From: Physocladia obscura
Lineage: Eukaryota; Chytridiomycota; Chytridiomycetes; Chytridiales; Chytriomycetaceae
Assembly: GCA_027596945.1 (NCBI GenBank)
Contig: JADGJH010000945.1
Location: forward strand, 1-12,970
DNA length: 12,970 nucleotides
Reading direction: 5' to 3'
A program made the translations under genes and the position numbers. Shown here in pieces: positions 438 to 12,970 of the stretch (within the stretch, counting starts at the first letter, position 1; every line of letters begins with the position of its first letter). Below the pieces are notes generated by a model. It ran no database searches. It was not told the origin of the DNA and worked only from the letters and a program-made list of their open reading frames with translations.

Positions 438-3400
438 ATGTTGACATATACAGCAACACCACTGGCAAGCCGGAAGAAGTTTCACCTTATGATCTCGTAC
501 TGGTAATTCTGAGAGTCTGTCACCCAAGGATTGATTTCAAACTACTGACTGGCGCATCACTGTCCTTTTGTATTTATTTAGCTGGCAAAACCAAGACCGG
601 GTTATAAACATCCGAGATGCGATTCTCCGAGAGTTCCCCACGATCAAAATTTGGATGGATATTGACAATATAGGAGATGCATCAGCGGACATTTACGATG
701 AAATGAATTACGCTATTTTGAGCTCCGAAGCTGTTCTGGTTTGCCTGTCTCGTGATTATTTGGTGAGTCCATGCTTTCATTATATCCCTTTTCAACTTTC
801 GTGGCAGAAATCACCGAACTGCAAACGCGAGATATCGCATGCTGCCGACGAAAAACAAACATTCATAGTTGCACGATTTTTTGTTGAGCCAGAGGCAGAG
901 ATGCGCGAGTTGAAAGAAAAATATGGCTCATCATTTCTGATCACGGCTGGAAGATTGTACGCAAACTTCAAAGATCTTGATCACACCTCCAAAGAATGGA
1001 TGGATCAGTTTAGAATCGTCGCCAAGCATATTCGGACATATATTCCTGAATTTCGGAATTCCTATGACATTTTGGAAACTCATACTTGGATTTCTACTGA
1101 ATGGTTTTTTGCTTTTACTTCTTCTGTTTAGCCTTTTGTTCACGAACTTTTTAAATTCAGTTTAACCGAATCAGTACGATCAAGAAACCTTGTTAATTGG
1201 CCAAATCCCGACAATGACAATGATGATATTGATGAGATCATTTTAAATATTCCAGAAACATACATTGGTGTTAGTAAGAAAATCAAGTCAATTTATGGAT
1301 GGGATTATTTTGAGGTCAAAATCAAAACCTTATTGCAAGGCCGTCTTGGTGATTTCACAGAAGGCCGTCTGAATGAACTTCTCAAAAAACAACGGCAAGC
1401 AAAAAATGATAATCCAAATTCTCCCGTTTTGTTTGAACTCTGGGTTCGGGAGGTTGTTCATCGGTTCTTTATTTCTTCGTTTCAAAATTACTCACTCATT
1501 GCTGATAGATTCAACCAATTATCTCAATACAAGTTCCGTCACATGCTTTTCTGCATGTAATTGAACCAAATAACACAAAAAGTGTCTTGCGATTTGCTGA
1601 GCCGGTCCAAGAATTTAAAAAGTTTCAAACAATTGTATGGGATTATTTTGTCTTTGATTATTACTCAGTATTTCTATTTCCAAAAGGTTTCCGCACAGCT
1701 TGATTTTGAAATTGGAGTGTCTGCAGCCATGTTCCACAATGATCAACAAATTAATAGTGATGAAAATGTCATCAGTCTTTTTACATCTCCAACTGCAGCA
1801 AGTCATATTGGAGACGTTCCAGCTTATGAACATCACCATAAAAGTGCTATTGCAGTTCAATTACGGCTATACTCTGAAAATTCAGAAACTTCACGAGAAC
1901 CAATATATCCAACACCATCTGATGATCAGGTTGCATTTGATAGGTATGTAGCTTTTTAGTATAACTTAGCACAATTATATAACTATTTAAATGGAACTGA
2001 TTGATTTATAAAAGCGACAACACTAACTATGCAACAGTAGCCAAGTTATCTTCCACACCCACAGATAATTCTCTTCTCATTGAAATACTAATGTGGCTTT
2101 CACCAGTTAACTTTATGTCAGATTTAGAGAAATTTTCTCAAACATATGTTTCTGGAACTCGTGAAAAGGTCTTGCATGCAATTATTGATTGGATGAGAAA
2201 ATATCAGTCATCCACTCTGTGCCAGCTGGGTGGTGCTGGTGTTGGAAAAACAATGCTTGCTTGGCTATTATACTCTCAAGCGTCAAGATTTTCATATCAA
2301 GTTGGGGCCTACTTTTTCTGCAAGCACGATGATGAGCGCAAGAACAACCCAAGAAGTATTGTCAGCACTCTGGCAAGCCAGCTTGCAAGTCAATTTCCGG
2401 GTTTCTTGGAACATTTAGTAGCACTCAAGACTGATTATGATAAAAAACTGGCCGCTAATCCAGATTTGGTTTCCCTGCTTGATAATTCCGAGTCATTCAA
2501 GATGCTGATAGTTGACGGGCTTCACAAAATTGAGTTTTCAGCTGATAAGACACTTTTATTGATAATTGATGCATTGGATGAGTGTGGCAAGCAGGGAGAT
2601 CTCAATCGTCAGTATTTACTCACAACAATTGGAGAAGATTGTAAAGACTTGCCAGCAAATATCCGATTGTTTGTCACCTCTAGACCTGAATCTGATATTG
2701 TATCAATTCTTGAAAAAATTGATACCAAAGAACTGAGAACTAGTGATTACTTCAATTTACTGGATGTTCAAATTTTTGTTGCCGAAATGCTTCGTCGCAT
2801 TGATTTTGATTCAAGCAATCCAAGACATATCGGTTTTATAAACAAAATAGTTGATGCCAGCGAAGGAGTGTTTGTATTTGCGGCACTGGCTTGTAAAGAG
2901 ATTGCAGAAGTGTTTGTGCAAAAAGATTTGACTCCTGACCATGAGGAAGTGGATGGTTTGATTGACAGATTTGTGCAAGATGGAGGTGGATTGGATGGCA
3001 TATACCAGCCATTGTTCCAGCGTGTCTATGATGGCGCCACAGAACTTGAAACTAACATGTTCCGTTCAGTAATGGGAATTGTTGTGACAGCAAGAGTTGC
3101 TCTGCATCCAGATTTAATTGCATTTGTGTTGAAAGTTCAACACCAAAATATTGACGCTGTAATCAGAAAGGTATAGCTGAAGATTTTTTCATCATGTAAC
3201 ATTACTTAGTACAGATCTATGTTCGCTCTATTTTGAATATCATTCATGATATTACATTGCTAACCATGGTTTTAGGTTCGCTCAATTTTGATTTTGGAAC
3301 AGGAAAAAGTGACAGTTTTGCACAAAAGTGTGCGAGATTTTCTGGTCAGCAGTCTTCGTTGCACAGATAAACGTTTTTTGATTCAAACATCCATCTATCA

Positions 3401-5970
3401 CAACATACTTTGTGAGCGGTCTTTGGAATCACTTATTGCCGACACTGTCAGTGACAGTGTGGCTACTTTATTTTTAGAATCATATGGAGTCAAACATTGG
3501 GCATTCCATCTGGATTCAGGGAAGCTTGCAAGCCATACAAAACTACTATCCCAATTGACTGCTGGAAATCCGCCACCTTTATTCAAATGGATTCAAATGG
3601 CTCTCGCAAAAGAAAGCAAAATCCAGCTTGAGGAGAGCTTTGACTCAGTGCTGCAATTTGTGAAAAGCTTACCGCAAGTCTATAGTTCTCTGTCAAACCA
3701 ACTGCGTATTTTTGAGATTGCCAAAGATGTTTTTGATCAAGTCTCTGTATTGACAATAAAAGCTGCAGAACAGAAGTTCATTGTCCAATTGTCAGCCAAA
3801 ATAACTGTGGCCAATATTGAAAATTTTGACTTCTTTTTATCATTCGAGTATGTTCAATTTTTTCAGTTTTACATTTATTTTTTTTGACTCTTGTTTCTGT
3901 TTATTTCTTTTCGTATTAACTAATTAAACTTTAAACTTAAACCAGACTCTCTGAAGCAGCAAAAATAATGCCAACTGCCCAAATGTTGACAAGTCTTGGA
4001 TTTCGAGTTGCACACCACGCTGCTGAACAGGCCAATGATGTGACAAATATGCAGATTGCACACTCGCTACTTTTCCTCCCATTTCTGTCAGAAAAATATG
4101 AGGTTTTTTGTTCCTTTCTTTCAATATAACTTCATATTATTCTACTTAATTGCTCTTGTAATATGTGCTCCTGCATTACTTTGCAGTCGTCTATAAGTTG
4201 CTCAAAACAGTTAAAATATGCTGTTGATGAGAAGAAAAAAATTGTTCCTATTAAATTAGAAACTGCTGTCCGTGGCAGATTAACGACTATGGCATCATCA
4301 GGGTAAAATAAAACAGTTGATAGCAATGCTAATGATCTTTTTTATCTTGCTTTATCAGGGTACCACCCATTTTGATGACAGATTTCGTTCCACGAAGTCG
4401 TGGCTGGAATACTTCCCTCCAAAAATTGAAAAATCATCAAGCTGGAGTCTTTGATGATATTTTATTTCAACTATTTGCTAAAAATGCCAAAAAAGCCGGT
4501 ATTCAACAACACGACAAGAACGTATTTGCACGAAAAACTTGGTGGCAACGATTAGATCTGTCATTTGAATTTGATGAAAACAGATTTCCAACAAAAATGT
4601 CAGGGTTATTTATTGTTTTTCTTAGTCACCGCATTCCCAACCCTTCCAAAGTTGTTTCCAGCGTGTTTTGATATCGATTTGTTTTGTAAAAACAGATGGC
4701 TTAACAACAACAAACTTTCTGGACCGATTCCGCCAGAATTGGGGCAACTGGTGGATTTGACTCACCTGTGAGTTTTCTTCCTGTTGCTTATTCCCTCTTG
4801 TTGGAAGCACGTTTTTTTGCAATTTCAGTGTGTCGTAACACCAGTTGGTTATTCAAAAACAGAAACCTCTCTGAAAACCAACTTTCTGGATTAATTCCGC
4901 CACAATTAGGACAACTTTTGAATCTCACTTATCTGTGAGTTTTTTTGTTGCTCATGTCCACTCATTTCAAACTTGGAAACATTTTGTGGCAACTCCTTTT
5001 TTTTTATACTAATTGGTTTTTCAAACACAGAACGCTCTACAACAACAAACTTTCTGGACCGATTCCGCCAGAATTGGGACAATTGGTGAATTTGGCTTGG
5101 CTGTACGTTTTCTTTGTGTTACGCATTCCTGCCTATTTGAGCCTTCTTGGCAGCATGTTTTGTCACCAATTGGCTTTTCAAAAACAGAAATCTCTCTGAC
5201 AACCAACTTTCTGGATCAATTCCACCAGAATTGGGACAGCTGGGGAATTTGACTTATCTGTAAGTTTTCTTCTTGTTTTGCTTATTTTCCAAACTTGTTA
5301 GCAGCATATTTTGTTGCAACTGCAGTGTGTTTTGACAATATTTGGTTTTGCAAAAACAGATCACTTCGTGATAGCCAACTTTCTGGACCAATTCCGCCAC
5401 AATTGGGACAATTGGTGAATTTGACAGAACTGTGAGTTTTCTTTTTGTTTTTAATTCATGTCTATTTCCAATTTTTTGGTTGTATGTTTTGTCAAACTGT
5501 GGTATCTTTCAAAATTAATTATTTTTGCAAAAACAGATACCTCTATAACAACAAACTTTCTGGACCAATTCCGGCGGAATTGGGACACCTGGTTAAATTG
5601 ACTGGACTGTGAGTTTTCTTCTTCTTGTTCCTTCTCACTCATTCCAAACTTGCTGGCAGCATATTTGGTGGCAACTGGAGTGTGTTTTGGCACTAATTGG
5701 TTTTGCAAAAACAGGTGGCTTGACAACAACCAACTTTCTGGACCAATTCCGCCAGAATTGGGACAACTGGTTAAATTGACTGGACTGTAAGTTTTCTTCG
5801 TGTTGCTCATTTTTACCTATTTCAAACTTGTTGGGTGTATATTTTGTGGTGACTGCAGGGTGTTTTAACAGTAATTGGTTTTCAAAAACAGGCACCTTGA
5901 AAACAACCATTTTTCTGGGCCAATTCCTGAAAGATTGAAGAGACTGGTAAAATATAGGGATCAGGGATGA
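438..5970 (+). CDS. TIR-NACHT-TIR-LRR receptor (NLR-like), about 19 exons
   Basis: This is a predicted intracellular immune-type receptor with a STAND ATPase switch. Exons as I read them: 438-502, 582-762, 808-1103, 1161-1452, 1509-1634, 1699-1943, 2015-3170, 3276-3847, 3946-4102, 4187-4302, 4359-4604, seven 72-nt LRR exons from 4696 to 5786, and 5892-5970 with TGA. All phases agree and the product is about 1,344 residues. The order is TIR1 (15-163), unrecognised linker (about 164-430), NACHT with Walker A at 474-481 and Walker B at 582-591, HKSVRDFL at 803-810, helical region, degenerate TIR2 (about 970-1100), and LRRs from about 1150. I chose ATG 438 because it gives an intact first TIR strand (FHLMISYCW) and has A at -3. 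The weakest joins are the donor near 1453 (1444 also fits) and the 1635-1698 intron (donor 1650 also fits). There is no signal peptide or membrane segment, so it is probably cytosolic. Known fungal NACHT proteins usually end in WD40, ankyrin or TPR repeats; LRRs are unexpected. Its ligand is unknown. Confidence 0.85.
480..1050 (+). other. TIR1 domain, probable NAD+-cleaving signalling domain
   Basis: This spans residues 15-163 over three exons. Strand A reads FHLMISYCW, with the Cys codon split by the intron at 503-581. KIWMDIDNIG follows as strand B and BB loop, then a helix and SSEAVLVCLSRDYL. Intron 763-807 comes next, and then KSPNCKREISHAADEK. In TIR NADases (SARM1, plant TIRs, bacterial TIRs) the catalytic Glu lies in the helix after the CLS strand, and E90 of NCKRE fits that position. 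Activity is inferred from this residue and the family. The domain could instead act only as a homotypic adaptor. Confidence 0.88.
763..807 (+). other. 45-nt in-frame intron inside TIR1
   Basis: It begins GTGAGT and ends GGCAG. Its length is a multiple of three and it has no in-frame stop, so a retained copy would insert 15 residues without shifting the frame. Removing it joins RDYL to KSPNCKRE, the normal TIR spacing, so splicing is the likely state. A retained form would separate the CLS strand from the catalytic-glutamate helix. Confidence 0.8.
1051..2200 (+). other. Uncharacterised linker between TIR1 and NACHT
   Basis: About 265 residues encoded over parts of five exons. One part is acidic (PDNDNDDIDEII), then comes a charged helical part (RLNELLKKQRQAK), then a hydrophobic, aromatic-rich part (VPSHAFLHVIEPNNTKS to VWDYF), and a polar tail before NACHT. 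I recognise no named domain. The frame changes at 1104-1160, about 1453-1508, 1635-1698 and 1944-2014, each at a GT...AG pair. The reading through 1512-1634 is chosen because it gives a balanced protein sequence, whereas the other frame has a stop at 1558-1560. Boundaries near 1453 and 1635 are provisional. Confidence 0.55.
2080..3344 (+). other. NACHT STAND ATPase domain with trailing winged-helix motif
   Basis: The pre-NACHT stretch LSPVNFMSDLEKFSQ...YVSGTREKVL is typical of fungal NACHT proteins. Walker A is GGAGVGKT at 2229-2252. Walker B with the extended acidic motif is LLLIIDALDE at 2553-2582. The VTSRPE sensor-type motif is at about 2673-2690, and HKSVRDFL is at 3321-3344. All key nucleotide-binding residues look intact. 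In this family ATP/ADP exchange drives oligomerisation. It is one long exon (2015-3170) plus the start of the next, separated by intron 3171-3275. Confidence 0.92.
3171..3275 (+). other. Intron carrying a duplicated 3' exon edge
   Basis: The phase 0 intron begins GTATAG and ends TTTTAG. The exon opens with GTTCGCTCAATTTTGA at 3276-3291, and a near copy with one difference in 16 (GTTCGCTCTATTTTGA) lies 55 nt upstream at 3221-3236. Both encode VRSIL. An AG at 3213-3214 precedes the upstream copy, but its use would shift the frame, so the downstream acceptor is the one I used. Confidence 0.75.
3345..3821 (+). other. Helical region between NACHT and TIR2, unrecognised
   Basis: About 160 residues in one exon following HKSVRDFL. 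It is rich in Leu, Ser and Lys, with helical-looking stretches such as LLSQLTAGNPPPLFKWIQMA and SLPQVYSSLSNQLRIFEIAKD. I see no WD40, ankyrin or TPR signature. In fungal NACHT proteins this position often holds a helical bundle leading into the sensor repeats, so a superstructure-forming role is possible but inferred. Confidence 0.5.
3822..4460 (+). other. TIR2, degenerate second TIR domain (Gln in place of catalytic Glu)
   Basis: The pattern runs NFDFFLSFE as strand A, MLTSLGFRV as helix and strand B, LLFLPFLSEKYE as the CLS-like strand, then SSISCSKQLKYAVDEKKKIVPI. It aligns with TIR1, where LSRDYL-KSPNCKRE-ISHAADEK occupies the same places. The catalytic-position residue is Q1038 (CAG, 4208-4210) rather than Glu, and the strand B/BB-loop acidic residues are not evident. 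Introns at 3848-3945 (phase 2) and 4103-4186 (phase 0) fall at the same two points as in TIR1. It is probably non-catalytic. The C-terminal border, beyond about 4280, is unclear. Confidence 0.72.
4605..5970 (+). repeat. Tandem LRR exon-intron cassettes (7 x 72-nt exons plus a terminal partial repeat)
   Basis: Each cassette is one 24-residue plant-type LRR with core NxLSGPIPPELGQL. Exons are 4696-4767, 4863-4934, 5031-5102, 5188-5259, 5360-5431, 5537-5608 and 5715-5786, each exactly 72 nt and phase 2 at both ends. The last exon, 5892-5970, begins the same way but ends in KYRDQG and a stop. Start-to-start spacing is 157-178 nt. Introns (85-106 nt) begin GTRAGTTTT or similar, and most end in an A-rich AAAAACAG preceded by AATTGG, with a CTAAT-like branch site in several. 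Intron 4605-4695 belongs to the same family. Exons and introns are both similar, so whole units were duplicated. Confidence 0.95.
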
Positions 5971-6261
5971 TCAGTGTTTAGTGTGGGGGCTGAAAAAAAT
6001 AAATAATGGATGATGTTAAATTCTCTGGCAGTTTTTAAAAAAAATTGAGTGTGCAAATTTTGTGAACTCAGAATTAATCCAGTTCTTAACAGTCTTTTGT
6101 TGAAAACATCAATAGAGGTAATTTTGTTTTTTATGTGGGCATACAAGATCTATACAACCTCTTAGTATCTCAATAAATGCAACTTAAGTTCCAATTATGT
6201 TTTTTTGCATATTTTTGAAATATGAGCGGGAATTTCTGACAAACATCGAAAACAACAAATA
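5971..6261. other. Intergenic spacer
   Basis: This is 291 bases of AT-rich sequence between the stop of the receptor gene and the start of the PHD-finger gene. It must hold the 3' end of the first and the promoter of the second. Apart from the AATAAA candidates I see no open frame with coding character and no clear TATA box or CAAT element. Confidence 0.7.
5998..6177 (+). terminator. Candidate polyadenylation signals
   Basis: AATAAA occurs at 5998-6003, 28 nt after the TGA, and again at 6172-6177. T-rich stretches follow each. Either could set the 3' end of the receptor transcript. In AT-rich DNA such hexamers occur by chance, so this is a candidate only. Confidence 0.35.
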
Positions 6262-9200
6262 ATGATGGCGTCAACGCCAACTTCTAATGAATATCCATTA
6301 GAGTCTCAACCTTTGAGCCAACACCAAAATTGGTCAAATAGACTCCATGATAGTAAACAACAGCCAAACACACCCATCCCTCAAGTAGCTGTGCCAACAA
6401 CAACAACAACAACAACAAAAACAGCAACAACGCAATCCCAATCGCTCGCAAACGCGATACCGCCATCTTTTTTGTCTCTGAATTTTCCGTTATCGATGGC
6501 GCAGGTATTTTTATTCGAACATTCAAGATGCCCTGGGTTTTGACTTTCTTGATTACAGATCTCGGACCTAGTCAAACCACATCAACAGCAACAAACACAG
6601 CACCCAGCGGCAGCAAGTACTAAAGAATCCGAATCTGGAACTTGCTGCACAGCGCCTATATCATCAACAGTAATATCGACATTAGCATCTACATCGCCGA
6701 CCACGAAGAATCGAACTGGTACTAATACTTCAGCTTCAACAGTCAACTCAAATCTGCGCTATTCATTTCCATTCCCGCATTCAACTCCATCGACATCGTA
6801 TCCATATCCGTATACGTATTGGCCGTATTCAGCGTATCCAAACACGGCCACGAACTTTGAATCTATGTCTGTGTCATCGTGTTTGATGCCGCAATCAGGC
6901 GCTGCCCTTTTGCGCACCAACAATGATAGCGTTAGTATTAATATTAATACCAGCAGCAGCAACAGCCACAATAATTATAATAACAATGGGCAAAGCATCG
7001 GTGAGTTGGCAGAAATCCAAAAAGTCAATTTCTTTCTCATTCCACAAACAGTTGTCACAAAGCCCAGCAGCGTACAGCCGCCGCCCGGAGCTCCCATTCC
7101 AGTTTCTGCATCCGTTCCAACAATTTCGAACATCGCAAATATTCCGAGCATTCGAACCCGGAACAGCCCGAATCTGAACCTTAACTGCGCAACTATTAAT
7201 AGTGATTATCTAAACATTAGCGGTAATAGCGGCAACGGCAACTATAATAACAGTAGCAATTTAAGCCACATACGCACACCTACATATCAAGTACCCATTA
7301 ACCAGCATCAAGTGCGTACACTCAACAGTATTATGGATCAACATCATATGCAAAGTCTGCATCCGTATTCAGCAGGCCAGCAACCGCAACCACAACTTCA
7401 ACCGATACAGTATCCATCAGGGCAAATTCAGTCGGCTGCAACGACAATGGCAACTCCTGATCCTCTCTTCTTTTTTGGCCAACCCTTGCCTCCGCTTGCC
7501 AATGATCCCCTGATAGGCTTAGGAATGGGCGATTTCAGCATGGATCTCAATTTAGGCGGCCTCTTTGGTGCAGATCCGTTGTTTCCAATGTCTCAATCCT
7601 CGGTGATAGAAGCCGATCCGCTCCTGACATGTTCTTCTGCGTCATTTTCAATTCCGATGAAGAACTCTTCTCGCAAAAAGGTTCATTTGCCAACAACTTC
7701 TTTGTTTTTCTTATTAAACCAAGCACCTCCCTTTAATTGCTGTCGTCGTATCTAATGCTTTGCCATACCCATGACAGAAACAGCATTCTCATAATCACCA
7801 GTTATCTCAGCAACAACCACATACTTCAAAGCAAAGAGCATCTGAGATCAAACGACCTTCAATCGAAGTCAAATCGTCCTTGTCAGTTGAAGACCAAAGT
7901 ATTCTGAGTGATGACAACAGCAGGCGAATTTTTGACGCCACTAAGATAAATAATTCTGTCGCTTCTGCAATGTCAGATTCCACCATATCCATATCCGCAT
8001 CTTACAAGATTGAGCATGCTCCCGAGTCTGTCGTTACAGTCGTCTCATCCTCAGTTGTGGAGGACGGATTTAAGTCGCATATCAATTTTGAATCAAAAGG
8101 CAACTCTGCATTGAAAATACCTGTTTCTGATTATGCAAAGGAAATATATGCATCTGATCGATTTCTATCGTCTTTAATTGAAACAGATGGCCCATCTGTT
8201 AATACAGTAGTTGAAAATGTTTCTCTTGATGCACAAAGTCCCACACCTAATCTTCAAGATGAATCGGTTGTGGATACAAGGATAGAATTTCTTGCCTTTG
8301 ACGTAATTGACTCCGAAAACCAGAATCAAGAAGTTAATTTGGATTGTGAAGCTAAAAAACCGATACATGAGGATATTGACGAATTTGAGAGAATATCTGA
8401 CGTCGATTCTGTTGAAGAATTCTCGAGCATTCTAATGGAAAATGATTTAATAAGGATTTCTATTAATCCGGAGTTTGAACCGGAACTTCCTGCAAAAGTT
8501 TGCCCATCTCCAACAATCGCTTCCAAATTAATTGAAAAACTGCCCGAGATTCAATCATCAGCCGATTCAAAAGAAATATGTGAAGAAATTAACCAACCTT
8601 TGGCAGCTTCAAATATCAACATATCAACTAAGTTGAGCGAATCGCACCAGCAAAATACACAAGCAACAACTATTATTCCATCCGGGGAAAATTCGTCACT
8701 ATTCCTGGCGAACACTGCTATAGTTTGCCCAGTCGAATCTTTCAAAACGATCATTGAGTCCATGGTAGCGTTAGTTACGACTCCAAATTCCTCACCTATT
8801 GATGAACCAGCTGTAGAGATACCGTTTTTAACGGTAGAGTCAAAATTAGATGATAAGCAAGATTCGGTAATTTCAATTATGATAGCATTCTCTGACCCTT
8901 AATAAAATTTTCCAAGCAGATTTCAAATGAAGTTCTTGAATCATCCATAATAACTGAATCAATAAACTCCGAAATAAAAGATGACGGAATTCCTGCCCTA
9001 CTTAAACCGATACCAACTCTATCAGACGCAAAAGTATCGGAAGAAATGCACGGTTATTTACGTTTAACGAATCTTTCAATGGAATTAGTGAATCCTTCAA
9101 AATCAGAAATAATAAAACTGCCATCTTCCTCAGTTTCGATACCCTCTGTGTTGATAAACCGCCAATGTGACTCGGAAGAACTTGATACACATTCTTTGCT

Positions 9201-12200
9201 ACTTGAAGAAACCGAAAAACCTTTGTCATTATTGGCAACATCAATAACAACTATGAAACTGAATGATGACCTTGATTTTTTAAATGACCCGAATGATTTT
9301 TGCCGAAGTGATAGTAACAGAGAGAGTCTAGAAACAGAAATTGTTTCAAAATCGAAAGCAGCAGTAGTCGCGGCAACACTGACAATGCTCATCGATTCTT
9401 GCCAAGTTAATCGAAAGGATGGCCCCGTATCACAATATCCTGTACAGCCAGATACTGTGCCTGAAAATGACGCATCTGAACACGACGAAAGAAAAGATGA
9501 CAATTTAAGATCTCAAACTGTGGTCATCGATGTAATTAAAATTGGAAAATCAAGCTCCTCTCAAGATAAAGTATTGGATATTCCGGATGTTGATTCGACG
9601 AATGCAAAACAAGGGTTAAATATTTTAGCTGATTTCAATCAAACCGAAGTGGTGGGCACATCGCATCAATTTTGTGAAATTGCAGATGATTTTTCGGATG
9701 CTTCTGTTGACAACACTGAAGAGACGTGTAATAACAGTAAAAATATCTCACCAGGGATTCAAGAAGCCACTACACGTATTGACTGCATATATCGGGATAA
9801 TTCTCTAAGTTTGCGTAGCGTACCGCATTCTGCCATATCTCATTCGGGAGGCGGAGCGTTCGAATCAGTTTTAAGCATAGAATCTGTTGACAAGTTTCTT
9901 ATTAATGATGCCCTGAATTCTACTTTGGAAAATAGGGTGTCTGAATTTGCTAAAAGCGCGGTATCTGTGGAAACTGTTCTCAGCCATAATACTCAGCTAG
10001 CTAAGTTACCAGAAACTGTCAATGGTGCTGAGTCGTCAGTCACGAGTGAATTTCCTCATAATGGTTCGAGAAAGAACGCCTCTGGAAATGCTAAGGACAT
10101 AAAATCTGCCCAGCGGTTTCGTTTACATGATATGGAAGCTAAAGTGTCTGAAACGGTTAAAATTTTAGTATCAGCGAAGCCATTTGTTGACTTGGAAAAT
10201 GAAGTATCTGAATCTGTTAAAAACATAGTATCGGTGGAGCTGTTACATAATAATAATACTCAGTTCCCTGATTTGGAACACAAGGTTGCAGAAACTGTTA
10301 CAGACATGGTGTTTGCCGATCAATTTCTGGGCAATAATATTCGGTTAACTGATTTTAAAGATGAAATGCGTGAAACTCCTGAATCTTTGAAGCGGTCATT
10401 TGATCGCAAATCCCAGTATGTCGATTTGGAAATGAAAGCGCGTAAAGCTGTTGCCAACGTGGAATCTGTTCAGCCTTTTCTTTGTAATGATATTCAATCA
10501 GCTGATCTGGTAGATGAAACCGTTGAATTTGTTGCGCAGCCGTTCAATAGTAAATCCCCATATGATGCTTTGAAATATAACGTGCGAGAAACTGTTAAGT
10601 CTGCTGTGTATTCTCTCAGTAATGATTCTCCTTCAGCCGATATAAACGATAAAGGCCTCGAATATATTAAATCTACTCACCAGTCACTCAATAGCGACGG
10701 TTTGCATGCTGGCACGTCAAAAACTGCGACGAACATGGTATTTGTCAAACCTTTTCTAAACCACGATCCTCGATTAGTTTTGGAAGATAAATCAACAGAA
10801 ACTGTAGCAGCTGTTGAGCAGCCATTCAATAGTGGATTTCCCCATACTGATTTTGCGTACTTGGAAAAAAATGCGTCTGACACCGTCAGGAATGTGCAAT
10901 CAGCCAAACAGTTTCTTAATAATGATATTTTGTTAGTTGATTTGGGCGATAGAGTGTCTAAACCTGTTAGTGCAGTATCTGCTGAGTCGCTTGCTGATTC
11001 GGAAAAAAAAGTGTCTGAAACTATTATGAACACAGTTTTGGGCAAGCCTTTTCTGGGTGATGATCCTCGCATAGACTTGGATGATAAAGTGTGTCAACGT
11101 GTTAAAAGCTTGGTATTTGCGGAACTGTTGAGCAAATCAGATCCAACTTCGGAAAAATTAAATCGTGGGTTACAAGTTCAAGGAGAAGCAACTATAATTG
11201 GGATAAGTGAAGAGACAGAAATTCAAGAACAAAATATGGCCAACCAAGATTTCTTTCTTGATCAATCAAATGTTGCTACTTCTGGTGAATTATCTAGCCC
11301 CAAGTTGAAAATTTTGTGTTCTGAGTCAAAAATTCCTGATGAAATGGCGCAAAGTCAGACAATCTGGGTGAATGAGAGCCATCCACAAGTTACTGCAGAA
11401 GAAAATGCAACAATTTCAACTCAAAGCATTTGGTTACAAGATCAAAAAGATGATTTTCTCTTACAAGAACAGCAAGTATTGCAATCACCCCGTCGGCCTG
11501 AAGAAATTGCAAAATCAACTTCAATAGTCGCACAGGAATCTGAAAAAACCATACGAAAGCCAATCAAAATTCGGCTTAAAACTCTTGGGCAACACCAGCA
11601 TTCTCGTGCTACCAGTGGTGGTAGCAGCTGTGCAGTTTCCGAATACGGTGGTGAAACAATTCCAGTTGTTAGCAACATACCAGACTCTGCTGGAAAGCGA
11701 ATTAAAACTATAAATTTCAGCGACGCACGGCAGCTTGATAACAATGAAGAAGCTGAATTACCTGGGAACAAGATGAAAAAGCTCTCAAAAAAACGGTCCC
11801 GGCAAAGCAGCATCTCTGGTGTATCAGATTACTTGAAATCCAAAAGCTCTTCGCGTTCAAGTTCGCCTGGACAAATCCGTATTCCACTGCGTTTGCCATC
11901 ATCTTCTGTCGCTCAAACATCAACCGCAGTTAGCACCAGCAAAAGTAAACGAATCAAAACAGAAGCACAAAAAATTACTTTATTAGAAAAAGCGGGGCTG
12001 ATATCTGGACAGCAAGGTTTATTAATGCGTGTGCGGAAAGCGGTGGAACGTATTGAAAGAAAAATTGTTAGTGGATCATGTGGCGCTTGTGGTGATAAAA
12101 TTGGTGAAGGCAGAGGTTTAAAGTGCGGAACATGCAGCATTGAATTTCATTCTGTATGTTTGGATTTTAATGATAGTGGAAACGTACAAAACTACCTGTG

Positions 12201-12970
12201 TAATATGTGCAAGGTTGGGAATTTTTTTTTTGAACCTATTTTAACCCTAAATTTTTATATATTTTCTGTGTTAGGTTCATGAAAGTGTTTCATTGAGTAC
12301 CTCTAATAATAGAGAACCATCATCAGCTTTCACAAGTGGATTAACATCAATAGCAGAACAACTTGTCGGCACGAATCCGCGCGAATTTATTCTTTCCAAA
12401 AGCACCAAAAAAATTGCGAGTGCGAGGATAAAAAGGCGAGCAAATGAGCTTGCTCAAACTCCCACAACTATGATAACGAAACAAGAGATATCTATTGAAG
12501 CGCGAAGTATTTCAAACCAGGCTGTTAAAGCAGGAGCAGTTGACGACATGGACACAGAAAAATACGGTTCAAACGAAATCAAAAATGGCTCGTCAAAAAA
12601 TTCGATACAAATCGGAACTATGATAACAGCAGGGCAACGGCAGGTCACTCAGATGAATATTATTGGTGACAATGTTGCAATGGAAGAATTGCGCCAAGCA
12701 AACAAGAATTTCAGATTTCCAAAATTTAGCGAAGTTTTGTCAGTTCCAGCAGTGAAAAAACGGCGAATGTCGGTTGCTTCAGTTTTTTCGCTGCCTCAAG
12801 ATTCTTCACCGGCAGATTCAGAAACAGGAGCGACTATGTCAATGTTGCAGCATCAGCCATACTTGAATCAGCTCCCACAATTAACTCCGGCAAATACAAT
12901 ATATCGGATCAGCGAAGCCAAGATTATGACTGATTTTTTCACGCGCATCAAATCTTATAAAATTGTATAA
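6262..12970 (+). CDS. Large disordered PHD-finger protein, probable chromatin/transcription regulator
   Basis: Exons as I read them: 6262-6504, 6559-7000, 7052-7680, 7778-8866, 8920-12213 and 12275-12970. The introns are 54, 51, 97, 53 and 61 nt, and all frames join to give about 2,130 residues. ATG occurs at 6262 and again at 6265. The N-terminus is rich in Thr, Gln, Asn, Ser, Tyr and Pro, and a DPL-rich acidic/hydrophobic patch lies at about 365-420. The body is Ser/Glu/Asp-rich and disordered, with degenerate repeats at about 1137-1546. Basic clusters (KKLSKKRSR, SKRIKTEAQK, KKRRMSV) look like nuclear localisation signals. A C4HC3 PHD finger lies at 1855-1898, preceded by a charged helix (VRKAVERIERK) and followed by a basic Ser/Thr-rich tail. 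PHD fingers usually read histone H3 tails; the exact family is not recognised. The TAA is the last codon of the window, but GTATAA there could also be an intron donor. Confidence 0.82.
6395..6418 (+). repeat. (CAA)8 microsatellite encoding poly-Thr
   Basis: Eight perfect CAA units are read in the ACA frame and give seven consecutive Thr residues near the N-terminus of the PHD-finger protein. A trinucleotide tract can change length without breaking the frame, so this run is likely to vary between strains. Shorter CAA/CAG-type runs occur nearby at 6577-6597. Confidence 0.9.
7001..7051 (+). other. 51-nt in-frame intron in the PHD-finger gene
   Basis: The donor is GTGAGT and the acceptor region is pyrimidine-rich, ending CACAAACAG. 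Length is a multiple of three with no in-frame stop, so the frame stays open whether or not it is spliced. The 17 residues it would encode (GELAEIQKVNFFLIPQT) are less Asn/Ser/Pro-rich than the flanks, which favours splicing. Confidence 0.72.
7459..7626 (+). other. DPL-rich acidic/hydrophobic patch, activation-domain-like
   Basis: About 56 residues contain four DPL motifs plus FFFGQPLPPL, GMGDFSMDLNLGGLF and FPMSQSS. Alternating acidic, Phe, Leu and Met residues in an otherwise polar disordered region are typical of transcriptional activation domains, but no single motif defines this class. Role inferred from composition. Confidence 0.45.
9925..11160 (+). repeat. Degenerate protein repeats, about 15 units of 20-27 residues
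   Basis: Residues about 1137-1546 are built from repeats with the loose form [D/L]LExKVSETVKxxVSAxPFLxNDxxxA. Clear copies include LENRVSEFAKSAVSVE, DMEAKVSETVKILVSAKPF, DLENEVSESVKNIVSVE, DLEHKVAETVTDMVFADQF, LEKNASDTVRNVQSAKQF, DSEKKVSETIMNTVLGKPF and DLDDKVCQRVKSLVFAE. The ETVKN part looks helical and the NNDxxxADL part looks like a turn. No known repeat family comes to mind. The DNA copies have diverged more than recent tandem repeats would. Confidence 0.8.
12079..12210 (+). other. PHD finger (C4HC3 zinc-binding domain)
   Basis: The spacing runs CGAC, then after ten residues CGTC, then SIEFHSVC and, after a loop of 13 residues, CNMC. This supplies the Cys4-His-Cys3 ligands of a PHD finger. 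The usual Trp two residues before the last Cys pair is replaced by Tyr (NYLCNMC). The intron at 12214-12274 starts just after the last zinc ligand. Aromatic-cage residues for trimethyl-lysine cannot be assigned with confidence, so the histone mark it might bind is unknown. Confidence 0.88.
12275..12970 (+). other. C-terminal basic tail exon of the PHD-finger gene
   Basis: 231 residues follow the PHD finger in one exon. It is Ser/Thr/Lys-rich and mostly disordered, with basic clusters ARIKRRANE and KKRRMSV that could direct nuclear import. I recognise no domain. The frame closes with TAA at 12968-12970, the final bases supplied, so I cannot check the 3' end. Confidence 0.7.

Follow-up and report, generated by a model that had tools for sequence, protein, structure and literature searches.

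The contig JADGJH010000945.1 of Physocladia obscura, a chytrid (Chytridiales, Chytriomycetaceae) and a true fungus, carries a gene that probably encodes an intracellular NLR-type receptor, with a TIR domain bearing a catalytic-type Glu, a NACHT switch, a second TIR domain, and an LRR array that it would have gained as a sensor by exon shuffling. The window, i.e., the whole 12,970-nucleotide stretch analyzed here, is contig C870 of the genome we searched (21,758,710 bases in 1,222 contigs). The gene runs from an ATG at 438 to a stop codon ending at 5970, where an earlier, sequence-only reading had placed it, and its 19 exons give 1,346 amino acids with no internal stop in the spliced frame. That reading had proposed a TIR–NACHT–TIR–LRR layout in a probable fungus. 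The layout is borne out by the single open frame and by TIR, NACHT, and LRR matches above Pfam cut-offs on a near-identical model, and the contig belongs to a chytrid; a non-fungal source was not found. The gene is a real and unusual one of NLR type: its parts are those of an NLR, the tree places it within a chytrid TIR–NACHT clade, and it is no plant TNL.

The domain content was scanned with Pfam on our first gene model (1,344 amino acids). TIR_2 matched two stretches with 74.7 bits (cut-off 28), and TIR scored 22.4 (21.3); the first TIR domain (TIR1), scanned alone, scored 57.5 bits with TIR_2, which supplies the N-terminal signaling domain of an NLR. The central region has the features of a STAND NTPase, with a Walker A motif (GGAGVGKT), a Walker B motif (LIIDALDE), and scores above cut-off for NPHP3_N (86.7 bits; cut-off 24.8) and NACHT (34.2; 26.7), and no NB-ARC match was listed at E values up to 0.1. 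The repeat families above cut-off are LRR_1 (87.0 bits; 20.6), LRR_4 (54.2; 27), and LRR_8 (43.3; 27), which agrees with the proposal of a sensor unlike the WD40, ankyrin, or TPR repeats of known fungal NLRs. Given the open spliced frame and the intact splice sites, this candidate C-terminal repeat sensor may lie in the same protein. Structure prediction, suggested with the sequence-only reading, helped for one domain: the predicted NACHT fold resembles STAND and other AAA+ ATPases, while the model (of P0001) is confident in the NACHT only, with residues 1–57, 68–79, 105–194, and 211–374 at a predicted local distance difference test score (pLDDT) below 50. The list of structure matches was taken up by the NACHT, so the fold matches speak for that part alone. 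The linker between TIR1 and NACHT (1161–1943) has no Pfam match above cut-off; it shows conservation in P0002 and similarity to P0124 and P0122, and by eye its pattern looks ubiquitin-like, a guess in a region of low pLDDT.

The exons were placed by hand from reading frames and splice sites, and two junctions were then revised by comparison. For exon 6 we picked the acceptor at 1686, which by eye gives a gap-free fit to Entophlyctis P0124, and dropped those at 1668 and 1698, whose lengths, likewise judged by eye, misfit the same protein. The exon 11 donor at 4599 was picked with reference to the paralog on contig C666, which also has a GT at the aligned place. In this model all 19 exons would be joined in a single mRNA. 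A split of the locus into separate genes, the outcome against which the sequence-only reading had warned, has a counterpart in the deposited annotation: the P. obscura protein HK100_012697 (98% identity over 65% of the query) is a 744-amino-acid model that starts within TIR1, lacks the second TIR domain (TIR2) and the LRRs, and terminates at a stop codon lying in the intron at 3171–3275. Aligned residues are kept across this junction in P0002, P0003, P0122, and P0124, and P0121 spans it with 11 fewer residues. We therefore rejected a division into two genes at 3171.

In a profile search that scored 8,000 candidates, 98 proteins were listed, and the nearest of those listed are chytrid. We built a NACHT tree from 37 rows chosen out of 236 NACHT hits, with one animal row included. 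The window falls in an eight-row clade (support 100/100, and again 100/100 in a smaller tree) with Siphonaria, Obelidium, Entophlyctis, and four other Physocladia proteins. This clade is nested in a 23-row clade (98/97), in which nine of the 15 remaining rows carry WD40 by our labels; two Nowakowskiella TIR–NACHT–WD40 rows (P0137 and P0140) sit outside it. The NACHT core is thus of chytrid type, as the sequence-only reading had it in calling the core fungal. Within the eight-row clade three rows (the window, P0003, and P0122) show a C-terminal TIR, and two more (P0121 and P0124) show, by eye, its first strand; the other three models end short of the region. By its NACHT inside the clade and its TIR on the C-terminal side, the window belongs to the chytrid TIR–NACHT–TIR group. 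On the sequences compared, the TIR–NACHT–TIR layout is shared by relatives, with a C-terminal TIR, or at least the first strand of one, in Siphonaria, Entophlyctis, and other Physocladia proteins, and the LRR array is the novelty. A search with residues 780–1152 found nothing at E 0.1, missing even P0003.

The second TIR noticed in the sequence-only reading is present but lacks a catalytic-type Glu. TIR2 matches the C-terminal TIR of P0003, residues 1142–1241 (BLASTP, E 4e-7, single comparison), and none of 500 shuffles scored as well against either P0003 TIR2 or P0122. In TIR1, Glu90 aligns with the Glu of RPS4 WCVRE (a weak match, E 0.02), the catalytic residue of that protein. TIR1 therefore has the candidate catalytic Glu of a TIR NADase and TIR2 has Gln1042 in its place. 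Across the TIR rows scored, 47 of 51 have Glu in this column (some rows repeat one gene); the profile was built from five seeds that included both window TIRs and both P0003 TIRs, so those four scores arise by construction, and P0122 is independent. The four rows that depart are the window TIR2, the Siphonaria TIR2 (Asp1213), TIR1 of a protein on contig C790 (Asp), and P0139 (a weak match, Asp). The partner TIRs keep Glu (Glu90 in the window, Glu511 in Siphonaria, and TIR2 of C790), so that all three two-TIR NACHT proteins with both columns readable have exactly one Glu-bearing TIR: E/Q, E/D, and D/E, respectively. Loss of Glu from TIR2 is not universal, as it is retained in P0122 and in the decayed C666, and Polychytrium P0152, with two TIRs and no NACHT match, has Glu in both. 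The C790 gene (L013, minus strand, 6469–3526) reads TIR (Asp), NACHT, a SAM match under cut-off (21.3 bits against 23), and TIR with Glu; it falls outside the two-TIR clade. For plant TNLs, a contact has been described in which the DE surface of one TIR holds the BB loop of the adjacent TIR (PMC12856790); on this basis the Gln-bearing sequence suggests that TIR2 is a non-catalytic partner TIR.

The LRR array consists of eight 24-amino-acid repeats, seven in exons of exactly 72 nucleotides and the last in the terminal exon, all entered in phase 2. The seven LRR exons share a mean likeness of 77% and the seven introns 72%; it follows that entire exon–intron units were duplicated not long ago or undergo homogenization. 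One-repeat-per-exon LRR arrays also occur on contigs C666, C1143, C394, and C102, and the C1143 and C394 genes carry F-box matches. At the DNA level, the relatives of the window array are two F-box–LRR genes and the decayed C666, which has a linker fragment, TIR2, and then LRRs, with stops. The idea of a shuffled receptor, put forward in the sequence-only reading, fits these phase-symmetric exons and their likeness to F-box gene arrays of the same genome. By eye, several single-exon LRR genes start with F-box-like N termini, and a large F-box–LRR family seems present. Among the matches listed, NACHT occurs on at least 21 contigs (E ≤ 0.001), TIR_2 on at least 30 (E ≤ 1; 22 of 34 places above cut-off), and LRRs on at least 46 (E ≤ 0.1; 87 places); these counts are lower bounds, as C666 is absent from the TIR list. 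Among these listed matches, NACHT and LRR occur together only on the window contig (one of the 21), and TIR and LRR only there and on C102, where a TIR part lies directly before one-repeat-per-exon LRRs (L057, 2314–3549) with no listed NACHT, a second TIR–LRR joining. Variation among the LRRs concentrates at repeat positions 24, 2, 4, 5, and 7 (proportion of nonsynonymous differences, pN, 0.483 versus 0.105), a concentration matched by only one of 2,000 random position sets. Positive selection is not proven by this, as the ratio to synonymous differences (pN/pS) is 0.63 at the variable positions and other arrays are similarly concentrated.

Do the LRR exons belong to this gene? We counted in favor of linkage that phase and frame agree across the junction, that the residue at the junction before LRR1 is Ile, where LRR2–7 have Leu, that the LRR part has no Met, and that C666 shows the same TIR2–LRR linkage. 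All 16 splice dinucleotides of the array and its frame are intact, whereas simulated drift left the array intact in 54 of 1,000 runs at 0.05 changes per site, in at most eight of 1,000 at 0.08 or more, and in two of 1,000 at 0.10. These observations speak against a functional gene that is TIR–NACHT–TIR only and ends at 4671, with the LRR exons as a downstream relic or another transcript, an alternative that we consider unlikely. It does have evidence on its side, and the following points weigh against a receptor of the full layout or are neutral toward it. Exon 11 has a weak donor (GTCAGG, with an alternative GTTATT in the same phase), and reading through it gives an end at 4671 after TIR2, much as Siphonaria P0003 stops soon after its TIR2 without LRRs. 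Compared with C666, the LRR exons have a pN/pS of 0.67, and introns read as codons give 0.64, 0.66, and 0.95; exon and intron identities are alike, and coding constraint on the LRR exons is not distinguishable from that on introns in this comparison. The drift simulation rests on a guessed share of divergence on the window branch. There is also little damage in the C666 array: a single aligned splice site differs, LRR1 contains one stop, LRR7 is shortened, and LRR8 ends earlier. Either that array was preserved until recent times, or the simulation exaggerates the damage. Scanned alone, TIR2 scores 25.5 bits (E 2e-5), under the Pfam cut-off. Finally, the search for the same architecture in other chytrids, which the sequence-only reading had recommended, recovered TIR–NACHT–TIR in relatives and no protein of the full layout with LRRs among the database matches listed, where gene models may be split. 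Between the exon 11 tail and the Siphonaria end there is no significant likeness (116 of 500 shuffles were as good).

It seems improbable to us that the gene is a pseudogene, decaying or not expressed, of a receptor that was formerly active. Both of its close copies, C897 and C666, are broken, which indicates that the family decays readily, and in exon 6 the ratio of nonsynonymous to synonymous rates (dN/dS) is 0.88 against C897, so that constraint is hardly seen. However, 1,346 codons stand in an intact frame, and by sequence comparison constraint is clear for the NACHT and exon 8 (dN/dS 0.20 each against C897) and for exons 9–10 (0.17 against C666). It is weaker for exon 11 (0.57 against C666) and the LRRs (0.59); for TIR2 with exon 11, pN/pS is 0.41 in the true frame and 0.91 and 0.85 in the other frames. 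Horizontal acquisition of a TNL of plant type, or contamination with a contig from outside the fungi, is largely refuted and hardly credible. The LRR motif is similar to that of plant LRRs, and the top solved-structure matches of TIR1 are TIRs of plant TNLs, though weak (E 0.02 and above). Against this, the NACHT scores above cut-off and lies within both chytrid clades, no NB-ARC is listed, the deposited record is P. obscura, and the LRR DNA has its relatives in the same genome.

How might an NLR-type receptor of this plan work and arise? The LRR solenoid would bind a ligand or monitor a self protein, and sensing could free the NACHT for nucleotide exchange and oligomerization. Clustered TIR1 domains might then cleave NAD+, leading to death or signaling of the infected cell. 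TIR2, which would not cleave NAD+, may serve as a built-in partner, e.g., by presenting a surface to the loop of a catalytic TIR, or may act as a brake. A chytrid TIR–NACHT–WD40 ancestor may have lost its WD40 and gained a C-terminal TIR; later, in Physocladia, phase-2/2 LRR exons, probably of F-box–LRR origin, would have joined behind TIR2. It is tempting to see here a third independent origin of the nucleotide-switch-plus-LRR plan, this time in fungi, by way of such exons added to a chytrid TIR–NACHT–TIR protein, together with a built-in pair of catalytic and non-catalytic TIRs among two-TIR NACHT proteins of this kind; we incline no further toward this claim than away from it. A chytrid gene of the TIR–NACHT–TIR–LRR layout would mean that fungi are able to make the receptor plan used by plants and animals. 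It would allow the assembly of that plan to be followed across near relatives that carry WD40 or lack LRRs, and it would offer a natural test of whether a catalytic and a silent TIR in one chain cooperate.

Features of the gene and its 3' flank in the window
Feature	Position	Strand	Basis
Exon 1: start codon and first TIR beta strand (FHLMISY)	438..502	+	splice model
Exon 2: TIR1	582..762	+	splice model; Pfam TIR_2, TIR1 alone
Exon 3: last part of TIR1, with catalytic-type Glu90 (SPNCKRE)	808..1103	+	weak RPS4 alignment; Glu column table
Exon 4: linker	1161..1452	+	conserved in P0002
Exon 5: linker	1509..1634	+	conserved in P0002
Exon 6: linker	1687..1943	+	acceptor 1686, gap-free by eye against Entophlyctis P0124
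Exon 7: NACHT, Walker A (residue 478), Walker B (588)	2015..3170	+	Pfam, splice model, predicted fold
Intron holding the end of deposited model HK100_012697	3171..3275	+	P0002, P0003, P0122, P0124 run through
Exon 8: winged-helix-like region (LHKSVRDFL), TIR2 box 1 (FDFFLSF)	3276..3847	+	splice model
Exon 9: TIR2	3946..4102	+	comparison with relatives' TIRs
Exon 10: TIR2, CSKQL, Gln1042 in Glu column	4187..4302	+	Glu column table
Exon 11: last part of TIR2, linker before the LRRs, phase 2 end	4359..4598	+	splice model, C666
LRR1 exon, 72 nt, phase 2-2	4696..4767	+	splice model
LRR2 exon, 72 nt, phase 2-2	4863..4934	+	splice model
LRR3 exon, 72 nt, phase 2-2	5031..5102	+	splice model
LRR4 exon, 72 nt, phase 2-2	5188..5259	+	splice model
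LRR5 exon, 72 nt, phase 2-2	5360..5431	+	splice model
LRR6 exon, 72 nt, phase 2-2	5537..5608	+	splice model
LRR7 exon, 72 nt, phase 2-2	5715..5786	+	splice model
LRR8, terminal exon with stop codon	5892..5970	+	splice model
AATAAA, candidate poly(A) signal just 3' of the stop	5998..6003	+	weak: AATAAA or ATTAAA at 11 places before 6300

Downstream, the window (6262–12970) holds a gene with a low-complexity N-terminal part and a PHD-finger match below cut-off (21.9 bits against 24). The assembly seems incomplete: HK100_008173 had no near-full-identity match in the genome searched, and for HK100_004766, which was not searched by itself, no similar match is among those listed.

A 2025 review describes LRR-type NLRs as apparently absent from the fungal genomes analyzed (PMC12881547; likewise PMC4986451), and the fungal genomes that Dyrka and co-workers and Soanes and Talbot analyzed are reported to have yielded none; TIR domains in chytrid NLRs are mentioned (papers among PMC4986451, PMC12881547, PMC9815663, PMC10197012, PMC2939053, and PMC12258605, for both statements). 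A 2026 preprint reports fungal TIRs in the EukProt set from one species only (PMC13142454). We found no description of a fungal TIR–NACHT–LRR protein in the accessible text of the openly licensed literature, including PMC4986451, PMC9815663, PMC10197012, PMC12881547, and PMC12258605; the last of these surveyed 122 proteomes, 10 from Chytridiomycota, and may list an LRR NLR in its supplementary tables.

The closest known systems include the chytrid TIR–NACHT–WD40 proteins (Polychytrium P0126, Blyttiomyces P0128, P0130, and P0131, Quaeritorhiza P0132, Nowakowskiella P0134, and Physocladia P0133), which share with the window an N-terminal TIR with Glu and a NACHT in the same larger clade, but have C-terminal WD40-type families (labeled from Pfam lists and names) in place of TIR2 and LRRs. 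Siphonaria sp. JEL0065 HDU68_011064 (P0003) is likewise TIR–NACHT–TIR, in the same clade, with a second TIR lacking Glu; unlike the window, it has a long N-terminal extension and no LRR. Plant TNLs such as RPS4 and RPP1 have the order TIR, nucleotide switch, LRR, as the window does, and the RPS4 Glu aligns with Glu90. In contrast to them, the window has NACHT instead of NB-ARC, a second TIR between switch and LRR, and one-repeat-per-exon LRRs of a kind common to local F-box genes. HET-E/D/R of Podospora (HET–NACHT–WD40) have the same tripartite NLR plan and internally similar repeats (PMC4986451 and PMC12881547), with HET where the window has TIR and WD40 where it has LRR. Animal NLRs also combine NACHT with C-terminal LRRs (PMC4986451), but with CARD or PYD in place of TIR. 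In our tree, which included one animal row, the window NACHT clusters with chytrid sequences, and therefore its association with LRRs looks independent of that in animal NLRs.
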